Origin: Warburgia ugandensis
Taxonomy: Eukaryota > Streptophyta > Magnoliopsida > Canellales > Canellaceae
NCBI GenBank assembly: GCA_035236585.1
Contig: CP141126.1
Location: 9,933,001-9,997,000, forward strand
DNA: 64,000 nt
Direction of reading: 5' to 3'
This document shows positions 50,292 through 63,530 of the stretch, piece by piece (position 1 is the first letter of the stretch; each line of letters opens with the position of its first letter). Under the pieces are notes generated by a model. The model did not search any database, was not told the origin of the DNA, and worked only from the letters and a program-made list of their open reading frames with translations. The translations under genes and the position numbers were made by a program.

Positions 50292-52370
50292 ATGGAGTTG
50301 ATTGGATTGCTGATCTTGGTGCTCCTATCCTTGCCTATAGTTAGGCTTTTGTTATCGTTATACTCATGGTATTCATCCTCAAGAGCAATAACAGGCATCC
50401 CTGGAACTCTTGGATGGCCTATTATAGGGGAGAGCTTTTCTTTTATATCTGAGTTCTCGAGCCCGTCTGGTATTTTCCGTTTCATGAACAAGAGACAGCA
50501 GAGGTATGCACGGATAGTGTAGCAAGTTAGCATGTTCTTGAAAATTTCTGAACCATTGTTGCTGATCTTTGTTTTTTTATTATTTCAGGTATGGAAAAGT
50601 GTTCAAAAGCAGTGTTTTGGGTAGATTTGTGGTCTTCATGACCGGAAGAGATGCAGCTAAAATCTTACTGTCGGGAAAAGATGGAATGGTGAGCTTGAAC
50701 CTGTTCTCTACAGGGCAGCAGGTTTTAGGTCCCACCAGTTTACTTCAGACAAACGGGGAAGAACACAAGCGACTTCGGCGACTAATTGCTGAGCCACTAT
50801 CGGTTGATGGCCTGAAGAAATACTACCAATTTATCAACCAGCTGGCGATGGAGACATTAGATAGCTGGCCCGAAAGAACAGTGCTTGTTCTTGAGGAGGC
50901 TTCATCGGTAAGTGGAGATGACATGGTTGAAGTGTGAGCTTGCAAAATTTCCAATGTTCTCAAGTGTGTTTGATCCTCCTCATTGTGCAGTTTACTCTCA
51001 AAGTGATCGGCAATATGCTGATAAGCTTAGAACCAGCAGGTGTGGAGCAAGAGAAATTCCAAGCCAACTTCAAACAGATATCTTCCTGTTTCGCATCCTT
51101 GCCTTTCAAAATCCCAGGATTTGCCTTTCACCGGGGCATGATGGTAGATCCAGGATACCCAACTGATGGCTTACAAGTAGTAGTACTTCACCACAAGATA
51201 TCTAACCATGGAATCTTACTTTTACAGGCACGAGTTCGGATGTTTGGCATGTTGGACTCCATCATAGAAAAGAGGAGGGAAGGCAGGGACTTGCGCTATG
51301 ACTTTTTACAGTCATTACTAAAGAAACACAGTGAAGCAGCAGAAGAAGATGAAGACAAATTTACCGATTCACAGCTAAAAGACAATATCTTAACTCTTCT
51401 CATTGCTGGTCATGATACCACGACTGCAGCTCTCACATGGCTCATCAAATTCCTCGAAGAAAATCCCACAGTTCTCCAAAATCTAAGAGTAAGATACTCT
51501 TGGTGATTTTTGAGTTACTAGAGTTTTGTTGATGACAAATACTAGAGTCTAAGGATAAAGTTACAGGAAGAACACAGGGCAATTCAAGGCAGCAAAAACG
51601 GTCCATCCCATCTCACCTGGTCAGATGTCAATAACATGCCTTATACCACTAAAGTGAGCAAGTTTCCTACTATTAACCACATGTCATAACATGAAGCTCA
51701 TGTTTTCTAATTTTAATCCTTTGGTGAAGCACAGGTGATCAGTGAAACTCTTCGAAGAGCCACGATATTGCCATGGTTTTCAAGAAAAGCTGCCCAAGAT
51801 TTTGACATTGATGGTATGGAAAGAAAATTAATTAAAAAATAATTCATGCTAAAGTCTGTATTCTGACACTAACACTACCATTTTCATTATCTTTAAGGAT
51901 ACAAAATTAAGAAAGGCTGGTCCGTCAACTTGGATGTAGTCTCCATACACCATGATCCAGACGTATTCACCCATCCTAATGTATTTGATCCATCCAGATT
52001 CGATGTAAGTCAACACCCTTTACTCGTGTAAGTACCTCTGGCTTCATGAGTACAGCAAATAACACAGTACCATAGCAGAAACCGCTGAGGTCCTTCAGCT
52101 ACCTTGGATTTGGCAGCGGACCACGTATGTGTCCCGGAATCAATTTAGCGAAGTTAGAAATCTCCATTTTCATCCATCACTTGGTCTGCAGATACAAGTA
52201 AGGAGCGAAAAGGAAGACATTTCTTTTACTTCTCAGGATTATCACTCATTTAACGTCATCTGTATTGCAGGTGGAGAGCACTGGAGAAAGATGACTCCGT
52301 GCAACCAACGTTAGTTCGCATGCCCAAGAACAAGTTTCCCATTGTAGTTGAGCCATTGCAGAGTCCTTGA
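50292..52370 (+). CDS. CYP722: Cytochrome P450, CYP85 clan, CYP722-like
   Basis: Nine exons: 50292-50503, 50589-50907, 50991-51143, 51228-51488, 51567-51653, 51735-51813, 51898-52004, 52079-52197, 52271-52370. All junctions are GT/AG and in phase, giving 478 residues. Residues 3-27 form a membrane anchor for the ER; '[14 protein letters not shown]' (35-48) is the Pro-rich hinge. The oxygen-activation motif AGHDTTT is at 288-294, ExxR (ETLR) at 348-351, 'FDPSRFD' ends exon 7, and haem binding [10 protein letters not shown] spans 417-426 with Cys424 as the iron ligand. '[16 protein letters not shown]', '[21 protein letters not shown]' and '[20 protein letters not shown]' point to CYP722; CYP707 or CYP720 are the alternatives. 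CYP722C members act in strigolactone (carlactonoate to orobanchol-type) oxidation; the role of other CYP722 groups is poorly known, so substrate is not assigned. Introns are short. Convergent with the serine decarboxylase, 152 bases stop to stop. Confidence 0.93.
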
Positions 52371-52522: not shown

Positions 52523-55500
52523 TCAATTATGCAGAATACAAGCGCAGATTTCCTCTCCTACATCCGGTGCAATACAAGGAATTTGGACTTTTCCATCTTT
52601 GAACCAGGTTGAACGCTTCTGAACCAATTCATCCATGAAAACATCAAGCTTCTCAATGGTGATGTTAGGCATCACCACAACATGAGCAATATTTCCCTGG
52701 CAGGCAAGCTGCCACCTGCGTACAAACTCTTCATCTTGTGGCCGTTCAAAAACAACAGTGCTGCTGAGCTCATTAAGCATGGCACCAATCCCTGCAGTTC
52801 GCAGGCGATCCTTCAAGTAATGTGCATTGCGAAGGCACTTCTGGACTTCTTTCTGGAACCCTCTGTAGCCTTTCCGGTTCAAGGTGTACCAGAGGAAGAT
52901 TGGTGCGTGGCCATTTCGGCTGCCCATGATGGTGGCATCCCTAGAAGCAAGATATTCGACGTTCCTCGAAAGGGCATTGATGTGCTCCAATCTTGTTATC
53001 TGCACGCCACAAGGCATTGGACATCCCACAAACTTGTGCCCAGAAACACTCACACTTCCAATTGGCTTCTTAAATGTCACCTTCGGTGCCTGTTTACCAT
53101 CAGAACAATAAGCCCACGTAAGTCAAAAAGTCAAACCATAACGGTCAGGTACACCAGGAGAGTTCAATACGTAAATTAGAAACAAATTAGCTAATCCTTT
53201 GACCTATGGGCTCGAAGCATCATGAAATTGGCAGATAGCAAAAGAAATAACATACACGTTTCACAAAAGGCATCATAAGCCCAAATAGAGCACCGTCACA
53301 GTGAATATAAAATTGCTCTTGTTTAAATCCAGTTTCTTCGAGGGTCATTATAACCAGATCAAGATCATCAACAGCTCCCTTAACCGTTGTTCCTGCAAAA
53401 AGTGAAAGGTAATCTTAGCCATGAATTTGTATAAATATAGGATGTGAAAAGGAAATGTGAAAGAGGACGCACCAATGTTGACATTAATTATGGCTGGCTT
53501 GTCTTTGTTTTGAAGAAGTTTTCTCCTGAAATCTGCACAATCAATCTCACCAGATACTAGAGTGTCAACCTTTATGCAATCCATTCTGTACATCCGTGCT
53601 GCCTTGAAGACAGAATAATGGGACTCCCGTGAGGCATATAAAATTCCATCAGGTAACACTTCCCTCCTGCACCACAAAATGATACACATTAACACAAAAA
53701 CAACAAGATTACAAAGGGTTCATAAGATTATGATTGCATGCGTAGATTTACTCTTCCCTATAGCCAGAAGACAAATGCAGTTGAAGTGACTAACCCAACC
53801 AGAATACCGTGGAGATTGCCTTCTGTCCCACAATTTGTAATGTAACCCCAGTATTCATTCTTCTCTAACTCCCAAAGACGGGCAAACCAATCCAATACTC
53901 CCACTTCAAACTGTCTAGAGTGCACACCGTAGTTGCTCTCAATAAAGGGATCGCCCAGATTGTTGATGGAGAAATGTTGCAACTGTGCCAGAGCACCATA
54001 ATCGAAGTCCAGATTATAAGGGTAACCTGTATTAGATTAACATCCAAATGTAAGGAACGCAAGTTGCAGGTGTAGCATGAAAGAAATTTTTTGAATCAAG
54101 CTTGTGCAATTCTGATTTGTACACTAGAATCTAGATACATCTGCCAAAATGACTAGTTAGAAAGTTAGCAGCGATCGATGCAAACAAGCAGGTCAAGGCC
54201 AGCTATATCCAAAATCATTGATGATACTACTAGCTGAAGGATCGAGCTTAAATGCATTTCAACAGTTAGTACCAAATTAGAATGACAAGAGGGCACACAT
54301 GCAACTGATGCTTTGTACCTTTCTAACCTATTGTCAGAAATTGTCACTAATGAGTGGTCAGGTATACACATGGATGTCGCCCTACTCAGCAGTGATCTCC
54401 AATGCACATGAATCAGTATTGCAACAATTAATGCTTTAACTTGAATCTTACCAGAAAAATCCTGAAATGTAAATAACCTCTTAGCTGCCCTCTCTCTAAT
54501 GTCAAGCTGGTATGAACTTACTGTATGGTTCACCATATAGAAATACCATCAAAAGTCCTTCCATGAATAAGTTTACAAACAGGATGTCAGGGCACTGCTT
54601 CTCTGATCATATTGCTTTTCCAGGTACATAGTCAGAGTCTTCTTGTGTATTGACTATTTATCAACTTTAAAAAGGATTTGAAATTGTTATTTGAGCAATC
54701 TAACCCACTCATGATTTTATAATCCGGTTTCAATTTAAAAACATGGCTATAGAAGTGCTAGAGGTATTGAGAATACCTCAATCTTTTCAATTCATCCACA
54801 GAACTATAGGAGAAAAAAACGGATATTGATTGTTTTTTCAGTTCAATAAATGATTGGAATGAGGGACTCAATATACAAAGATCAGAGAGTTTTGGCTACA
54901 GCCACTTCATCGTATAAAGAAGGACAACAATGACCATCTTTGCAGCACCGATTCAAAAGCCACTCCTTGTTTCATATTACTGGCAGCTAAGCTAAAACCA
55001 AACACAAGCATCCCATAAGGAATTAAACTAGAAGAAACAGCAGCACCCCATCTTACAAAACCTAAAATGTAAGCGAAAACAAGGAGATGTTGCTAACTTC
55101 CCCCTCTGATTGGCATAGACTAGCAAATGACAATAAGGATTATATGTAGAGATCATTGGAATGGAAAGACGCAAACATCAATCCTACCCAATCATTTAGT
55201 TGCATCCAATTCAAGTTTATTTTTTACCATGGGATCTGCACGAACTAACAATACAATGAAACCTATTTAAGATCTTGGAGACCTCAACATTAAAAATCAC
55301 CCCTTGAAACACAAGGAGTACCTCAACATTAAAAATGAGGTGAAACTCAGTAAACAATCTTCGAAATCGCAGTTCATTGTTTTGATTTCTCACTATAAGA
55401 TAGGTCTCGCCATGTTATGCTTAAGTGAGTCCAGGATACTACTAAACAGACTTCCCCAGTTCTGCCTACCCGTAAGTTTCTAGCTAATCATTGCAAAAAT

Positions 55501-55933
55501 TGTATGAAAGGAATTGCTATAGTCCATGATAAATGGATCCGAAAAACCCACTAAAGATACGTATATAATAATAAAAGAAAGAAAGAAAAGGGCCCAAAAA
55601 ACGGCGATTTGTCATACCTAGATGGTGTTTGGTCCTTTCAACAAGAGATTTCCTGTACCTTGCCAAAACACTGGCCATATAAGCTTCCCTATCTCCTGTA
55701 ACCTCATCATCTACTTCAGGCTCTGTAATGGCAAAGCACGTTGTATGCACATTCCTCCCGAGCACAATCTCTCTTTTCTCCTTCTCACCTTCACCAACAT
55801 CACCATTAATGGTCAAGCCGTTGCAAACCCCCGGAGCAAGAGTGTCCGATATCTCCTTGGGATCTCTCTCTTCCGGCAACGGCTCAACCTTTCCGTTCCA
55901 TTCATTGTTAACTACTTCAAGACTGCCACCCAT
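52523..55933 (-). CDS. SDC: Serine decarboxylase (pyridoxal-phosphate group II decarboxylase)
   Basis: Five coding exons on the minus strand: 55933-55618, 54026-53795, 53666-53473, 53392-53256 and 53089-52523. Phases 1, 0, 1, 0 match throughout and give 481 residues, close to the Arabidopsis protein as I remember it (about 482). It turns L-serine into ethanolamine, the entry to phosphatidyl-ethanolamine and choline synthesis. The N-terminal about 95 residues are variable and acidic; then '[20 protein letters not shown]' and '[20 protein letters not shown]'. Catalytic-domain words are '[18 protein letters not shown]', '[19 protein letters not shown]', '[11 protein letters not shown]' (cofactor Asp) and [17 protein letters not shown], with the Lys of SGHK (about residue 312) as the Schiff-base residue. 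Intron 1 is about 1.6 kb. A likely 5' leader intron lies upstream (donor near 56268, acceptor near 56025). A second first exon lies 5.3 kb further upstream. Confidence 0.96.
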
Positions 55934-56019
55934 GATTAGATTACTTACAAGAACGCAAATCTCAATCTGCCTTCTTCACTACCAACTTTGCTTCCTCAGC
56001 AAATGCGGAAATAGTTAAA

Positions 56020-56340
56020 TATCTGAACAGAAAAACATCCAAAATCATCAGATTCACCACCTAATGAATCAGAAGAACAGATCGGGGCTGTAATCGCGCA
56101 ATGATCACACACCCAGATCGAAATTGCCTCAAAATAATAAAAGAATAGCGGGAAAAAGAGAGAAATGGAGATTGGCTAAACAAGGGAAGGATCTAGAAAA
56201 TGGAAAGCTTTGATTCTAAGATCTGCAACGAATTCAGAAGATTGAAATGAAAAGGCAGAGAAACGAACCTGAAATGGGAAAGAAGAAAGAACAAAGGAGG
56301 AGCGAATGCACTGCTACTTGGGGTTCTAAGATCGGCGGAC
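56020..56340 (-). other. Probable 5' leader and leader intron of serine decarboxylase
   Basis: On the minus strand 'cccatttcag|gttcgtttc' near 56268 can serve as a donor and 'ttttctgttcag|atattt' near 56025 as an acceptor. This would place the transcription start around 56340 or further up. Inferred only from signals. Confidence 0.35.
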
Positions 56341-56399
56341 CATTCGCTGAGGGAAAGGACTGAGGCGCTGGCCTTGCGTTTCTATTCTATTAATAGGTG

Positions 56400-57130
56400 G
56401 GGGCCCCTCGGACCAATTTTCCAGCAATTTCCCGTAAACTTCCCACACATCACTCGCATCCACTTGTCCCGGAGAGAAGAACGAGCTCTAGGGGAAAGTT
56501 TCTCTGGAACCAGGAGAATTCACAAGGAAGCCTGCCAGGCCTTACCAAAGATTCATGAGATGACTACACTAGAGAAGTCTCGGAGAATCTAGACAGCAAA
56601 GCAGTTTGAAGGGTCCCTTTAGTACCAAAATCCCATCTCCATGGGATGATCCTCATAAACGGACGGCTCCAAGGGTTAAGATTCATAGAGGAAAGCTCGA
56701 CTGACCCCATATGAATGAGGTGTGATGAAACGAGCACCCCTTCTAGAGCACACCTTGATACCGACTCATCATCTCATTTCTCATGCTTTGCATGTCTGAG
56801 AGGGTGTTAACGTATCCGTGGGGCTTGACATGGAGTGAGCGGTATGAAATGGGCCATGTTACTATTAGACCTAGTGGTGCTGGAAATGAAGTGACATGTC
56901 ATCATTTCACTGTTAGAGGTGCTTGAGCTAAGTTGAGATAAATTAATATTGTTTCATATCATGCAGGATTGGTAATCGGAAGCTAGATTTCATCTCATCT
57001 CACCTCATCTCGAGTCAGCTCACTCCATCTCAAGTACTATTAAAACGAAGTAAAGCTTATGGTTTGAAGGTTTGTTTCCTCGCAAAGGTAGGCTATAAAA
57101 AAATGTATACTATTTGATTGCACCTCATCT
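56400..57130. other. Intergenic DNA, no supported gene
   Basis: Contains 'catctcatctca' words that repeat irregularly near 56990-57030, a feature of dispersed repeats, but no element can be named. Confidence 0.4.
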
Positions 57131-57138
57131 AGAATGAA

Positions 57139-57299
57139 TAGTGCACAAAGCACAAGCATATATAGAGTTCAAAAAAGGAGTGGACTACAAATAGTTTATA
57201 ATATGCAGTCTTATCTTATATTTTATAAAGGACTGTTTTCACATTTCAAATCCATGACCTCTCGGAGTTGTGCCACTTAAAACCGTTGCACCTCTTCTG
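57139..57299 (-). mobile_element. Diverged Au SINE
   Basis: Reverse-strand parts 'gtgcacaaagcacaagc', 'aaggagtggactacaa', 'tgcagtcttatcttatattttataaag', 'ttcaaatccatgacctc' and 'ccgttgcacctc'. Several small losses; no clear target-site duplication. Confidence 0.8.
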
Positions 57300-58400
57300 C
57301 CGTGAGCATTATAGCACTCCTTAAATTCACATGTTATAGAAAAAATTTCGGTAAGAAAACTAGAATGCGGGTGTAAAAAATAAACCCTGTCAAACTTTCA
57401 ATCATCTGGGCCCAGTATCCAACTTGTAGTCTTTGTATCCATTTAAACAGGGATATAGCAGCTCCTATTTAATTTGCATGTTAGAAATGACAAAAATAGA
57501 TGGGCTGTTAGGCAAGTTATTAACGGTCTCTGTTTCGACCAAGTATGCCATGTGATATGACTAATTTTCTGATCCAACATGTACTGCTAAATCCATCCAT
57601 CTGCCCTATTTCACTTCAATCAGATGTTCTTATCCTCTTCATCGATTAACGCCAGAAAATGCCAAGCCATTGATTTTTGCTGGACATAAGCCTACAGCTG
57701 CGATGCCCATTATGTGGAATGCCTCTTGATGGGCTTAACTGGCCCCGCTTGAACAGATCGTCGGTACCATCGAGTCACTCAACCTCACGTACGTGCAAAT
57801 GTAAACAGAAAATGTGGAAACAAAACTTGTAAAATGTAAATGAAAAGAACTAACAAACCCACGTTGTAGGCCATTGGCAAGTACGTGGTGATTTAAGTGA
57901 AGCTACCATGGACCTGGCCCGGTCTTCCAAAATATCAGCAGGTGGCCGGCTAATTCGTTTGAATGGTTAAAAATGGTAAACTCTCTCATTTCCCATTTCA
58001 GACAGATAATTGCGGCAAATTTCAGTCAGTAGCGAAGGTGGTTTGTTTTTATCTTTCCCTTTTCCCCGTATGATGATGCATTGTGCACGCACCTGGCTAT
58101 CTGTTCTGCAACAACCGATGCTCAGGGGTTCGCCACATCAGCGGAGATGGCCCATTTGAAGCATTGGAAGCCCAAATATCTCACGGTTCCATAGTTGTAG
58201 TCGAATGATCTGAATAAACTTTCCGAGAGGGAGGCCCCCGTGGATTGGCTGCTACTCGCTTGTCTTCCTCGACAGTTTTCATGATCGGACTTACTAATGC
58301 AGGGGATGCAGATAAAGTAGGCATAACCGTGTGCTTGTTTTACTCATCAAACCATAAACAGCATAATGAAAGCAAAGAGCCGTCGAACGACGGATGGTCG
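57300..58400. other. Intergenic DNA, nothing recognised
   Basis: No gene, RNA or named repeat seen on either strand. Confidence 0.45.
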
Positions 58401-58404
58401 TGTA

Positions 58405-58584
58405 AAAAGGTAGCTCCGGTGCAGAAAGCTTCCACCGATGCAGGGCTCGGAGAAAGGGCAGATCACAAGCATATATACTATACAGTTTTATCTTGTATTT
58501 TTTCAAGAGGCTGTTTTTACATCTTGAATCCGTAATATTAAAACTCACATGATGACAACTTTATCGTTACACCAAAACTCCCCT
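58405..58584 (-). mobile_element. Diverged Au SINE, near full length
   Basis: Reverse-strand parts 'agctccggtgcagaaagc', 'tgcagggctcggagaaagggc', 'tcaagaggctgtttttac', 'cttgaatccgtaa' and 'accaaaactcccc'. Clearly an Au copy with many point changes. Confidence 0.85.
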
Positions 58585-58599
58585 TCAATTATATATGCC

Positions 58600-60430
58600 C
58601 ATCTCTTAGGCAAAAATAAGGTAGATAAAAGTATGTGTAGGCATTTCATATTCGGATCTTGAACCAGGCAAATCTCTTTATCAACCAGCCAATGATCTAA
58701 GGATAATGATTCTAATCGTCCACTTTCTCACCATTAATGGATGCTTACAAGGTTTTATCAGGTTAGTTATCATAAAATGCACCGAAATTATTCAAATGCA
58801 ATCCACTTTCCAGCTTTCCATGATACCCACTATCTGCACTGTTTAACACAGAAATCCAGTCACAAAACCTTATCAAACCCCATGTTTGGACAAATCCTTT
58901 ACCTGTCTAAATTATTACGTAAAGTTTCCATGGAAATTAAGAAAGTGTAAATAGAAATGATTTTCCTAAGAAATCTATTTTCATCAGAAAATTGTTTTCT
59001 TCCCTTTTGTAGCCAAGTGAGACACATTTGAGCACAATTCGAATACGTAAGCTTGCACTGGAGAGTAGGAGGGCCCCTTCTTTTCAACCACACAGCCCTG
59101 GACCAAAAACATGAGGTCTACATCTACTTAAATGTTATCCATAAAAAGAGATCTTCGATGTGTAATATTCATCCATTGACAAGTCCTAGCAAATAAATAA
59201 ATGGTTTGGATGATCGAACAAGTGGACTTCATCTAGACCTTTGCCTGTCACATTAATTATCCCCCATATCAATGTGTACACATCATCTATGAAACTCCAA
59301 TGGATCACATCGGTCACTTTCTATCCCTTCTTTCTGCACGTTTTTCACGTGAAGACATACTGTGTTCATGAAAAGCCCACGCGCAAGGGGGTACCAAGGC
59401 TCAGGCTGCCTCTTAAGACTTCGAAGAGTTCAATTAAGAGTACAGAGACACTTATGTTGGTGATTTCATCAGGGCTTATGCTGTTGGGGTTTTTAATTCC
59501 TGTGTCAGTTCAGTGCTAGAAAAAGGGGAGATATTATATGTGCACCAAGCTACATGGATAATTTGCGGCATGTGTGTACACGTCATATGGGCCCAACCCA
59601 GTATTATTGATTTGATTTATTAGCCTGCTGATGTGGTCGTTTCAGTTTCGGAGTTTTATTCTCCCATGCTATATTTCAAAAGGATACAAAAGCATCTTTT
59701 TTATATTGCTTAGTTTGAAAAAGAAACAAAAAGATATTTCTTATGTTGCTCTATTTCAGTAAGAAACAAAAAAATCTTCTTTTTTTCTTTTTTTATTATT
59801 ATGCAGAACTGGATTTAGAATCTTTTGGATCGGATCTGCTCCTATGATCTTCGTCGACCTCGAGTTGGGTTGAGATTGGGATTTTTCGTGTCATCTCAAC
59901 CTCTGCTAGCAGTGATATAGTTCATCTCATCTCAAGCACCACCAACTCTCCGTAAGACTTTGATTGAAGATCTCTAGAAATATGCAGCGGTATTATGCAT
60001 TAGGTCTATGGTTTATTCATTTTTGGGCATTCATAATCCGCCACGGCATTCTTTTGTTCAGCAACTTGATTCTCTAACCATAATAACTTGATTCTTCCTA
60101 TTTATATACTACAAAAGCAACTGAAAATCCTGCAGTTGCACTCCAATACTCTTTCTTTCTCTTTATGGAAGACTGTTAGAGTTTATTTGGTCTATAGCAT
60201 TTTACACTTTAAAAATCTAACATAATCATGTGTGGTAACTGCTCACGTCAGTTGTTTTGATGGAAGAATAAATGCTATCAGCCATCTATTAAAATATTAA
60301 AAAAAGAGGTCCTTGATTCATGCAGAAAACTACTTAGTTCTCTATCATCGAACACTATACAGAATTAGAAGATCTCTTAAAATAATATCAGAACTACTGC
60401 TAATGGCTGAAGGTAAGTTTCTAATCTATT
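58600..60430. other. Intergenic DNA, nothing recognised
   Basis: AT-rich with T-runs near 59780. Repeated 'gaaacaaaaagat' words at about 59720-59775. No gene supported. Confidence 0.45.
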
Positions 60431-60437
60431 TGCTTTA

Positions 60438-60645
60438 CTTTTGCTTATCTATCTAGACTGCAGCCCTATTGCACAAAGCTCCTGCTTATACAGGGTCCAG
60501 GGAAGGGGTGGACCACAAGGATCAACAGTACGCAGCCTTCTCTTGCATTTTGTTAGAGGTTGTTTCCATGACTTGAGCCCATGACCTCAAGGTCATGACA
60601 CCAACTCTACCATTGCACTAAGGCTCTCCTTTTACTTATCTATCT
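60438..60645 (-). mobile_element. Au SINE with 17-bp target-site duplication
   Basis: Reverse-strand body 60455-60628 ('cagccctattgcacaaagc', 'ggaaggggtggaccacaag', 'cttgagcccatgacctcaagg', 'cactaaggctct'). Flanks 'cttttgcttatctatct' and 'cttttacttatctatct' differ once. Well preserved. Confidence 0.96.
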
Positions 60646-60726
60646 GATTTTCTATAAACATTTAGAAAATGATTTACAAAGAAAACAAAGCAACTATACT
60701 AAAGCTCTTCTAAGCCTCAAAAAATA

Positions 60727-60769
60727 GAAGAAGAAGAAGAAGGAGAAGAAGAAGAAGAAGAAGAAGAAA
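60727..60769. repeat. (GAA)n microsatellite
   Basis: About 14 GAA/AAG triplets with one interruption ('aggag'). Confidence 0.93.
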
Positions 60770-60870
60770 TCCATATAACACAACTAGTTGCTTCCCTTAC
60801 TCAAAGAAACTATAGTAAACAAAGGCCTAAATAAATACAAATTCCTTTACTTGAAAGCAACTATGATATT

Positions 60871-61115
60871 GATCCCTATTCGGGATAAGGTCTTTATGGG
60901 CAGTCCCAGTGCACAAAGCTCCTGCCTATGCGGGGTTCGAGGAAAGGGCGGACCACAAGGGCCTATAGTATAATAGTAGGCAGCCTTACCTTGTATTTTG
61001 TAAGAGACTGATTTCATGCCTTGAACCTGTGACCTTAAGGTCACATGACGATAACTTTTACCGTTGCACTAAGGCTCCCCTTGGGATAAGGTCTTTAGAA
61101 TGATAATGATAATGA
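60871..61115 (+). mobile_element. Tiny RTE 3' end interrupted by an Au SINE
   Basis: 'gatccctattcgggataagg' before the SINE and 'tctttagaatgataatgataatg' after it reconstruct the last 50 or so bases of an RTE LINE, including its GAT-like tail. This is an extreme 5' truncation. The SINE target-site duplication lies inside this text. Confidence 0.7.
60882..61097 (-). mobile_element. Au SINE with perfect 15-bp target-site duplication
   Basis: Reverse-strand body 60897-61082: 'gggcagtcccagtgcacaaagc', 'ggaaagggcggaccacaag', 'ccttgaacctgtgaccttaagg', 'cactaaggctcccc'. The flanks 'gggataaggtcttta' are identical. Full length apart from a short extra 'tataatagta' duplication in the middle; among the youngest copies. 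Confidence 0.96.
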
Positions 61116-61257
61116 AAGCAAGTATGATCTAGGCTGTCCAATCTAACGGTCGAGATTTAAGGATAACTAAAATAATTTAAAATAGGAAATTAAGTGGGTA
61201 AAAGTAAAATATGTGGCTTAAGCCACATGAGTCATTTTAGGGAGCGATGATTCGTAC

Positions 61258-61579
61258 CTAAATGGAGCTCGGATCTTTCCGTGAGAAGCTTCTTGTACCT
61301 TGCCAATACACTGGCTATATAAGCCTCTCTATTTCCGGTAACCTCGTCGTCCGACTCCGGCTCCGTGACCTCGTGGCATTTGGTACGCACATTATCTCTG
61401 GTAGCAATCTCATGCTTCTTCTCTCTCCCCTCACCATCCCTGGCCTTGCCGTCATCACTCTCCCCGTTCGCAACAAGAGAAGAGCAAGGATTTGGAACCA
61501 TTTTCGAATCAAAATCTCTCGGCAACGGCTTGGTTTTGTTATTCAAATCGCTTGGAAGAACATCCATGCTTACTGCCAT
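61258..61579 (-). pseudogene. Extra copy of the serine decarboxylase first exon, rest of gene absent
   Basis: Open from ATG 61579 to a donor-like CTCCATTTAG|GTACGA at 61258, 322 bases, ending in the same phase (one base over) as the canonical exon 1. The encoded 107 residues match the neighbouring decarboxylase exon, strongest at the end: TEPESDDEVTGNREAYIASV then LARYKKLLTERSELHLG, with the acidic N-terminal part diverged. No exon 2-5 counterparts are visible between it and the intact gene. It is either a partial tandem duplicate (dead) or an alternative first exon that splices about 7.2 kb to the shared exon 2. No stop or frameshift within the exon. Confidence 0.85.
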
Positions 61580-62340
61580 AAATGCTCAAGCTACAGAAAC
61601 CTAATCCACGATGTTACTACAATCTGGGATCCCCGTTCTACACGTTTTTTTCTATTTTCTGCACTACCGACACTTTCAAAATCTGACAAGAGTAGCTCTA
61701 GCTACAAGGAAATCTGTGTATAAGTAAAGCGCGGATCCGTAAGGAAATGATCGACAATCTAAAGGAGAACGCTTTAGGTAAGAAGGAAGACGGGATCCAG
61801 AAGGGAAAGGGCGAAGGAAATGAATTTCGAAGAGTGGAAGGAAATGGTCGAGTTCGCTCAGGAATGCGAACTGAAGGTTCGTGCTCATCGCTATCTATAG
61901 ACGTCCGGTACAAAATTTACTCTCCCCATTTCTACCAATGGATAAATAAACACAAAAAACGTAACCTCCTGCAAAATACGGGGGGGACTGAAGGTCCAAG
62001 TTAACCAATTTTATTCGTCCAGACCTGTCTACACGGCAGGCTCTACTCCCGATGCGTCATACATAGAGATTCAGGTCTTAGAAATTTTTTGAAAAAATCC
62101 TGATTTTCTTTTGATCTGTTTTTTATGAAAAATTCAAAGTTCTTACAATTTTCAGATACAAAGCGAATTCTAAAAATTTAACATAAATGTATTTAATGTA
62201 ACTTATGTTTCACAAATAAGTTGTCAAAATCTCAAAAATTATTAATCAATCTAGATTAAAATTGAATTTAAAAGCTCAAATTCATATATGAAAAATGATT
62301 TTCTTTTAATACTTTTTCCAAATTCTTCAATAATGCTTGT
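61580..62340. other. DNA upstream of the extra decarboxylase exon
   Basis: About 400 bases next to the exon are mixed-sequence and could hold a promoter in minus orientation; no TATA box can be placed with confidence. 62050-62340 is AT-rich. No other gene seen. Confidence 0.35.
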
Positions 62341-62516: not shown

Positions 62517-62544
62517 CTGCTTTCTTTTTCTTCCTCAACTATAT

Positions 62545-62704
62545 AAGGGCAGTCCCAGTGCACACAGCTCCCGCCTATGCAAGGTTTAGGAAAAGGGTAG
62601 ATCACAAAGGCCTAAAATACATTGTTTTACCTTGCATTTGTAAGAAACTATTTTCATACCTTGAGTATGTGATCTCAAGTCACACGATGACAACTTCTAC
62701 CGTC
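62545..62704 (-). mobile_element. Au SINE, 5' end lost
   Basis: Reverse-strand parts 'gggcagtcccagtgcacac', 'gtttaggaaaagggtagatcac', 'ccttgagtatgtgatctcaag' and 'gacaacttctaccg'; the last 20 bases of the tRNA-like head are missing. Confidence 0.88.
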
Positions 62705-63287: not shown

Positions 63288-63530
63288 CAGCAAACCACTG
63301 GAAGGAGTCACATGTTTTTTATTATTTTTAATATGGTTGAAACCAAAAAAAATATTTTAAATTAAGCAAACCACTGGAAGGAGTGACATGTATATATATA
63401 TATATATTTTTAACATGGTTGAAACCTTTTTTTTTTATAAATTAAGCAAACCACTGGAAGGAGTCAACATGTTTTTTTTTTTTTTTTTTAACATGGTTGA
63501 AACCAAAAAATAAAATAAAAAATAATTAAA
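63288..63530. repeat. Three tandem repeats of about 80 bp with length-variable A/T runs
   Basis: 'agcaaaccactggaaggagt', 'cacatg/gacatg/caacatg' and 'taa(t/c)atggttgaaacc' occur three times, separated by variable T, TA and A runs. Copy starts are near 63290, 63366 and 63446. The conserved cores are almost identical, so the array is young or being homogenised. Confidence 0.92.

Follow-up and report, generated by a model that had tools for sequence, protein, structure and literature searches.

Here we analyze a window of 64,000 nucleotides (the whole stretch of DNA under study, C1:9933001-9997000), which from its gene content we take to derive from a plant, and within it an isolated exon that lies upstream of a serine decarboxylase (SDC) gene. 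Judged by alignment, this orphan exon is a homolog of the SDC first coding exon; it is older than the duplication that separates this gene from a second SDC gene on contig C3, and it was held by purifying selection in the past. Neither exons 2-5 of its own, sought across the genome (1.12 Gb in 14 contigs), nor a copy of the exon in the 60 kb around the C3 gene was found. With somewhat better than even confidence, we read the exon as what remains of an old tandem paralog, SDC', whose first coding exon survived when the others were deleted.

An old homolog of the SDC first coding exon

The orphan exon (322 nt) begins with ATG, continues for 107 open codons, and leaves one base (G), followed by GTACGAATC. 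The coding exon of the normal gene also leaves one G, followed by GTATGACA; the two share a phase, and exon 2 at 54026 is compatible with either. A preliminary description of this DNA had pointed to the open frame, the GT donor, and the interchangeable phase, and all three observations hold. As a query against the genome, the orphan exon returned three matches, namely itself and the first coding exons of the two SDC genes (E = 8.2e-23 on C1 and 9.9e-23 on C3). A chance open frame is ruled out by this homology (E = 8e-23).

In a protein-guided alignment, the orphan exon matches SDC exon 1 from end to end, and every indel is a whole number of codons. Relative to C1 exon 1, 50 of 105 aligned residues are identical overall, with 21/62 in the head, 29/43 in the tail, and 26/35 over the last 35 residues, the part previously singled out as conserved. 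The head had been called diverged and acidic; it is diverged but not unusually acidic, with 12 acidic and 10 basic residues versus 13 and 7 in the normal exon. Taken alone, the orphan exon matches no Pfam family.

By its domain and structure matches, the downstream gene is a full member of the plant serine decarboxylases. Its five coding exons, separated by GT-AG introns, join into a protein of 481 residues that matches Pfam PF00282 (E = 2.2e-24), and the best match in the PDB is the serine decarboxylase 8jg7 (E = 8e-250, residues 65-480). The second gene on C3 (84399552-84415459, plus strand) also has five exons.

Synonymous distance (dS) between the C1 and C3 genes is 0.199 for exons 2-5, with a similar 0.205 for exon 1. 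Between the orphan exon and either SDC gene it is 1.24-1.35 over the tail and 2.0-2.3 over the whole exon, the latter near saturation. On this scale, the split between the orphan exon and SDC is several times older than the C1/C3 duplication, and the "moderate age" first suggested was an understatement.

The same comparison supports the earlier suggestion of some selection. A three-sequence tree gives a nonsynonymous/synonymous ratio (omega) of 0.23 for the deep branch, and a test against omega = 1 rejects that value both for the whole exon (2dlnL 19.2, p = 1e-5) and for the tail alone (p = 6e-4). Because part of this deep branch belongs to SDC, it was divided between the two lineages. The SDC share was set at 35-50% and the SDC omega at one of three values, and both the whole exon and the tail were fitted, giving 12 settings. 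The orphan's own omega falls between 0.08 and 0.40, and omega = 1 is rejected in 12/12 settings (p 0.0003-0.047). Fits to the head alone ran to bounds (pairwise) or to extreme dS (three-sequence) and are not used. For SDC exon 1 between C1 and C3, omega is 0.47, which is rather high. When the tail is set against Arabidopsis SDC, 9/41 positions are changed in the orphan exon only and 1 in C1 and C3 together only (binomial p = 0.02), so the orphan lineage evolved faster, yet remained constrained. From these ratios, purifying selection is what held the orphan exon in the past, though not necessarily since the C1/C3 split.

How long the exon could have stayed intact without selection was calibrated on the C1/C3 introns, which carry 13 frameshift-sized gaps in 1545 aligned bases at a distance of 0.22; the pooled indel rates come from introns only, excluding an upstream stretch aligned at 60% identity. 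If neutral over 0.6 substitutions per site, the exon would remain intact with a probability of about 1e-6, or 4e-5 at half the rate. A relic that was neutral throughout is therefore rejected, on these values and on the 0.0017 obtained from stops and donor loss. Over 0.10 substitutions per site, approximately the time since the C1/C3 split, the probability is 0.10 (0.19 at half rate), so a fairly recent death fits. The 95% bound on neutral time is 0.13, or 0.18 at half rate. Selection would thus have kept the orphan exon for most of its life, at least until about the time of the C1/C3 split, and may still act or may have lapsed.

Relic, alternative exon, or short gene

Searched with the full SDC protein, the genome gave 11 matches, and 11/11 are accounted for by five exons on C1, five on C3, and the orphan exon; there was no third SDC gene, no third set of exons 2-5, and no second copy of the orphan exon in this search. 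Low-stringency tblastn of the window plus 20 kb upstream found no further SDC exon near the orphan (next best hit E = 0.21), in line with the earlier statement that no other paralog exons lie between. Around the C3 gene, the same approach over 60 kb gave no orphan exon, and beyond the known exons the best remaining hit had E = 0.45. The preliminary description had held that exons 2-5 of a separate paralog, joined to this exon from elsewhere, would overturn its proposals; the own-genome search returned no such exons. As a gene of its own, the orphan exon would need exons 2-5, which neither the genome search nor tblastn returned; as a pseudogene fragment, it is missing exons 2-5 while the exon itself has no stop, frameshift, or donor loss.

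For the SDC' relic, the following history is proposed. SDC' would have arisen by tandem duplication of SDC, well before the segmental (possibly whole-genome) duplication that produced C1 and C3, and would have been a selected gene for most of its life. After that duplication it would have been lost wholly on C3, while on C1 a deletion may have removed exons 2-5 but spared the first coding exon and the 5' flank. Three points here are inferred: SDC' formerly had its own exons 2-5, these were lost by deletion, and no useful protein is made from the exon today. Counted in favor of this history are the combination of age with constraint, the fit of a recent death, the faster orphan lineage, the predicted splice acceptor at 56023 discussed below, and the absence of a C3 copy from the interval searched.

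Several results weigh against the relic. We looked for a trace of exons 2-5, for a second 3' end, and for a deletion junction around the orphan exon, and found none of them. The complete paralog is therefore inferred and not seen, and the relic depends on a clean deletion of which we saw no trace. The exon itself carries 0 stops, 0 frameshifts, and 0 donor losses, and counting stops and donor loss alone, without indels, loosens the neutral bound to 0.28 (P = 0.0017 at 0.6). A model with a single omega (0.33) throughout the tree could not be rejected in favor of one with two (p = 0.145), and by that test relaxation of the orphan lineage is therefore not demonstrated. Finally, the exon with its 5' flank (61258-61960) has a CpG observed/expected ratio of 1.02 against a regional median of 0.47, and a live promoter and exon might look this way; this value is reached by 4.9% of 1426 windows, and the peak is not exceptional.

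The principal competitor, which we hold to be possible though unlikely, is an alternative promoter and first coding exon of SDC itself. Transcripts would begin upstream of 61579, bypass the usual leader acceptor and coding exon, and splice the orphan exon at 61258 to exon 2 at 54026; the product would be an SDC of 483 residues, with its N-terminus changed and its catalytic body unaltered. The shared phase, the intact GT donor, the open frame, and an omega below 1 all fit, and long introns are tolerated at this position, where intron 1 of the C3 gene spans 13.9 kb and 7.2 kb would be required. The better conserved tail (29/43 versus 21/62) also corresponds by position to the dimer-clamping helix of the solved enzymes (PMC11407765). 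The 5' flank is CpG-rich, and the 500 bp before the exon had no other match among the 40 of 172 candidates that were scored.

Splicing counts against such an isoform. Ahead of the SDC start codon, the C1 and C3 genes each have a donor-like CAG/GTTCGT (GTTTGT on C3) and the acceptor TTTTTCTGTTCAG, and the length between the two sites differs (246 bp on C1, 117 bp on C3); we read this pair as a leader intron. The SDC coding exon at 55618 would thus have its own acceptor at 56023, and because a leader intron (56268-56023) appears to precede it, the "normal exon 1" of the preliminary description, which had missed this intron, is probably not the first exon. A transcript that starts at the orphan exon would meet this predicted acceptor, common to C3, ahead of exon 2. 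Joined to it, the orphan exon reads Asp-Ile-stop, so that the frame ends two codons on with a 109-residue product; unspliced, the frame ends at 115 residues. Thirty-five acceptor-like sites (at least 10 pyrimidines in 14) occur between the orphan donor and exon 2 by a rule so crude that the exon-2 acceptor itself fails it, and exon 2 is not marked as the favored partner. An isoform would require skipping a coding exon with its own predicted acceptor, which may be possible but would not be the default. In addition, no C3 copy was found by tblastn in the 60 kb around that gene, and the orphan exon departs from SDC at nine tail positions at which C1, C3, and Arabidopsis agree, though the catalytic body would be shared. 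The preliminary description had weighed a working alternative first exon against a partial tandem duplicate in the course of being lost; its evidence of phase and past selection stands, and the alternative exon becomes the less likely of the two in light of the predicted acceptor and the frame that ends after two codons.

Two other origins are less probable still. The exon could be a fragment of a third, diverged SDC locus that moved in after the C1/C3 duplication, with its source lost or outside the assembly; we regard this as improbable. It would account for a surrounding stretch with no convincing collinear match on C3 (the best is 58 bases, E = 0.008) and for the dispersed repeats around the exon, including same-orientation copies of a short interspersed element (SINE)-like repeat on both sides. 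Against it, a fragment landing at random is unlikely to have ended up 5.3 kb from SDC and on its strand, the genome search found one copy of the exon and no third SDC, and no transposon ends were recognized except members of the widespread SINE-like family. The other, which we rate lower again, is a stand-alone short protein of 115 residues (unspliced) or 109 (through the leader acceptor), a putative clamp-helix polypeptide that would pair with and regulate SDC. Both short frames close with a stop, the function would explain purifying selection without exons 2-5, and the solved N-terminal helix lies antiparallel to that of the neighboring subunit (PMC11407765). The fuller version, in which a live short gene has its own promoter and yields a 109- or 115-residue microprotein that bears the SDC clamp helix, derives from the first exon of the very enzyme it targets, pairs with SDC, tunes ethanolamine supply, and has been kept since before the C1/C3 duplication, is a very slim prospect. 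A multi-copy fragment carried by a transposon was rejected, with a single copy of the exon found and no transposon ends recognized. So was a larger tandem unit including the neighboring cytochrome P450 gene, as three P450 exon pieces found no other in the window plus 20 kb.

Serine decarboxylase is the source of ethanolamine and choline. If the orphan exon is a relic, the locus preserves the dismantling of a tandem sister gene that can be dated against C1/C3, the first exon and 5' flank having survived longest. Were it in use, a central metabolic enzyme would gain a second N-terminus under a separate promoter. In both cases, gene prediction may link the orphan exon to SDC and report a false N-terminus.

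Features of the locus and its surroundings

Table 1. Features of the orphan exon and SDC locus, in window coordinates.
Feature	Position	Strand	Remarks
Dispersed repeat adjoining the 5' flank	62082..62330	.	39/40 scored matches are other copies, all inside this part
Orphan 5' flank, possible promoter and leader	61580..62081	-	CpG observed/expected 1.13 over 61580-61960
Orphan first coding exon	61258..61579	-	107 codons + 1 base; GT donor at 61257-61256
Stretch without C3 match at the collinear position	59206..61257	.	Includes SINE-like repeats; putative former site of lost exons 2-5
Intergenic stretch upstream of SDC	56820..59205	.	Matches the region upstream of the C3 gene in collinear blocks; searched for SDC exons, none found
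Predicted SDC 5' leader intron	56023..56268	-	246 bp (117 bp on C3); acceptor would compete with exon 2 for the orphan donor
SDC first coding exon and 3' part of 5' leader	55618..56022	-	Coding sequence 55618-55933; upper end predicted from acceptor common with C3
SDC exon 2	53795..54026	-	Starts at 54026; phase-compatible with both first coding exons
SDC exon 3	53473..53666	-	
SDC exon 4	53256..53392	-	
SDC exon 5 with stop codon	52523..53089	-	

The orphan 5' flank contains, by eye, a TATA-like CTATAGATAG at 61891-61900. Local alignment scores between the orphan and SDC flanks are equalled by 5/300 shuffles for C1 and 7/300 for C3, while no shuffle (0/300) reaches the score between the C1 and C3 SDC flanks. 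Over the last 50 bases, the corresponding counts for the orphan are 35/500 (C1) and 2/500 (C3), over the last 80 bases 232/500 and 114/500, and over the last 120 and 160 bases 32 to 77 of 500. Since this similarity is borderline and mixed, duplication of promoter and leader along with the exon is only suggested.

Among the 32 listed of 132 matches between the contigs, with repetitive-looking ones dropped, C1 and C3 are collinear, with breaks, across SDC and the adjoining DNA. This extends to a PPR-like stretch farther upstream, in which the first of two C3 reading frames matches PPR families. Between SDC and this PPR-like gene, which both contigs carry, the search of C3 turned up no orphan exon. 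For the stretch that holds the orphan exon (59206-76377 in coordinates of the window plus 20 kb), nothing convincingly collinear was seen on C3. A weak match at 65743-65800 (58 bases, E = 0.008) has the expected order and orientation, but it was not counted as synteny because the same C3 spot also matches C1 75849-75901 in the opposite orientation.

SINE-like dispersed elements of about 120-185 bp occur at 57140-57260, 58416-58585, 60460-60631, 60900-61082, and 62549-62703, and the same-orientation copies that flank the orphan exon lie at 60895-61064 and 62544-62703. We take the elements around both exons to resemble Au-type SINEs. Short arrays of repeats, spaced at 40 bp and at about 76-82 bp, lie at 59667-59786 and 63289-63530. 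A second CpG-rich stretch lies upstream of SDC at 58001-58600 (observed/expected 0.90-0.93), mostly in C3-collinear blocks, and no gene was recognized in it.

Intron 1 of the C3 gene (C3:84399868-84413776) measures 13.9 kb versus 1.6 kb in the C1 gene, and the C1-C3 match is broken at about 54372-54382 on C1, within SDC intron 1; this suggests an insertion of about 12.6 kb in intron 1 of the C3 gene. On the other side of SDC, a cytochrome P450 gene runs toward it from 50292 to about 52300 on the plus strand, with PF00067 matched by its first two exons and, by eye, a heme-binding-like motif near 52100 that would leave no more than a few hundred bases between the end of this gene and the SDC stop. 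The counterpart on C3 gave short matching pieces only and may have decayed.

Beyond this genome, 61 pattern matches in viral contigs and 64 in bacterial or archaeal genome contigs yielded 0 confirmed relatives of the orphan exon, and a literature search found it reported in no title or abstract start.

Comparison with known systems

Compared with plant SDC (AtSerDC, PF00282), to whose first coding exon it is homologous, the orphan exon has only the variable head and the clamp-helix region, the catalytic part being absent. The solved CsAlaDC and AtSerDC had 60 and 65 N-terminal residues removed; what is left of the N-terminal domain includes a long helix that runs antiparallel to its counterpart in the other subunit, making a clamp (PMC11407765). 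The 8jg7 chain starts at SDC residue 65; by position, therefore, the orphan tail corresponds to the helix region and the diverged head to the removed part. According to a study in tea, CsSDC has five coding exons, as does the downstream gene here, and CsAlaDC originated by gene duplication (PMC7923638). CsAlaDC, the tea alanine decarboxylase, is a diverged SDC duplicate that has acquired a new substrate, and a diverged SDC duplicate is likewise proposed here. Unlike the orphan exon, which adjoins SDC and remains as one exon, CsAlaDC is described as a complete gene on a chromosome other than that of CsSDC (PMC7923638).

The locus has phase-matched duplicate first exons 5' of shared downstream exons, and in this it is like UGT1A and protocadherin. 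In those systems, tandem-duplicated alternative first exons are each joined to a shared acceptor; here, the inner coding exon appears to own an acceptor that would be the default partner of the outer exon. Truncated tandem duplicates, which are fragment pseudogenes following chromosome duplication, provide the other likeness: a partial copy stands beside a full one, with unequal loss between duplicated segments. The orphan fragment differs from these in that it is still fully open with its splice donor intact.

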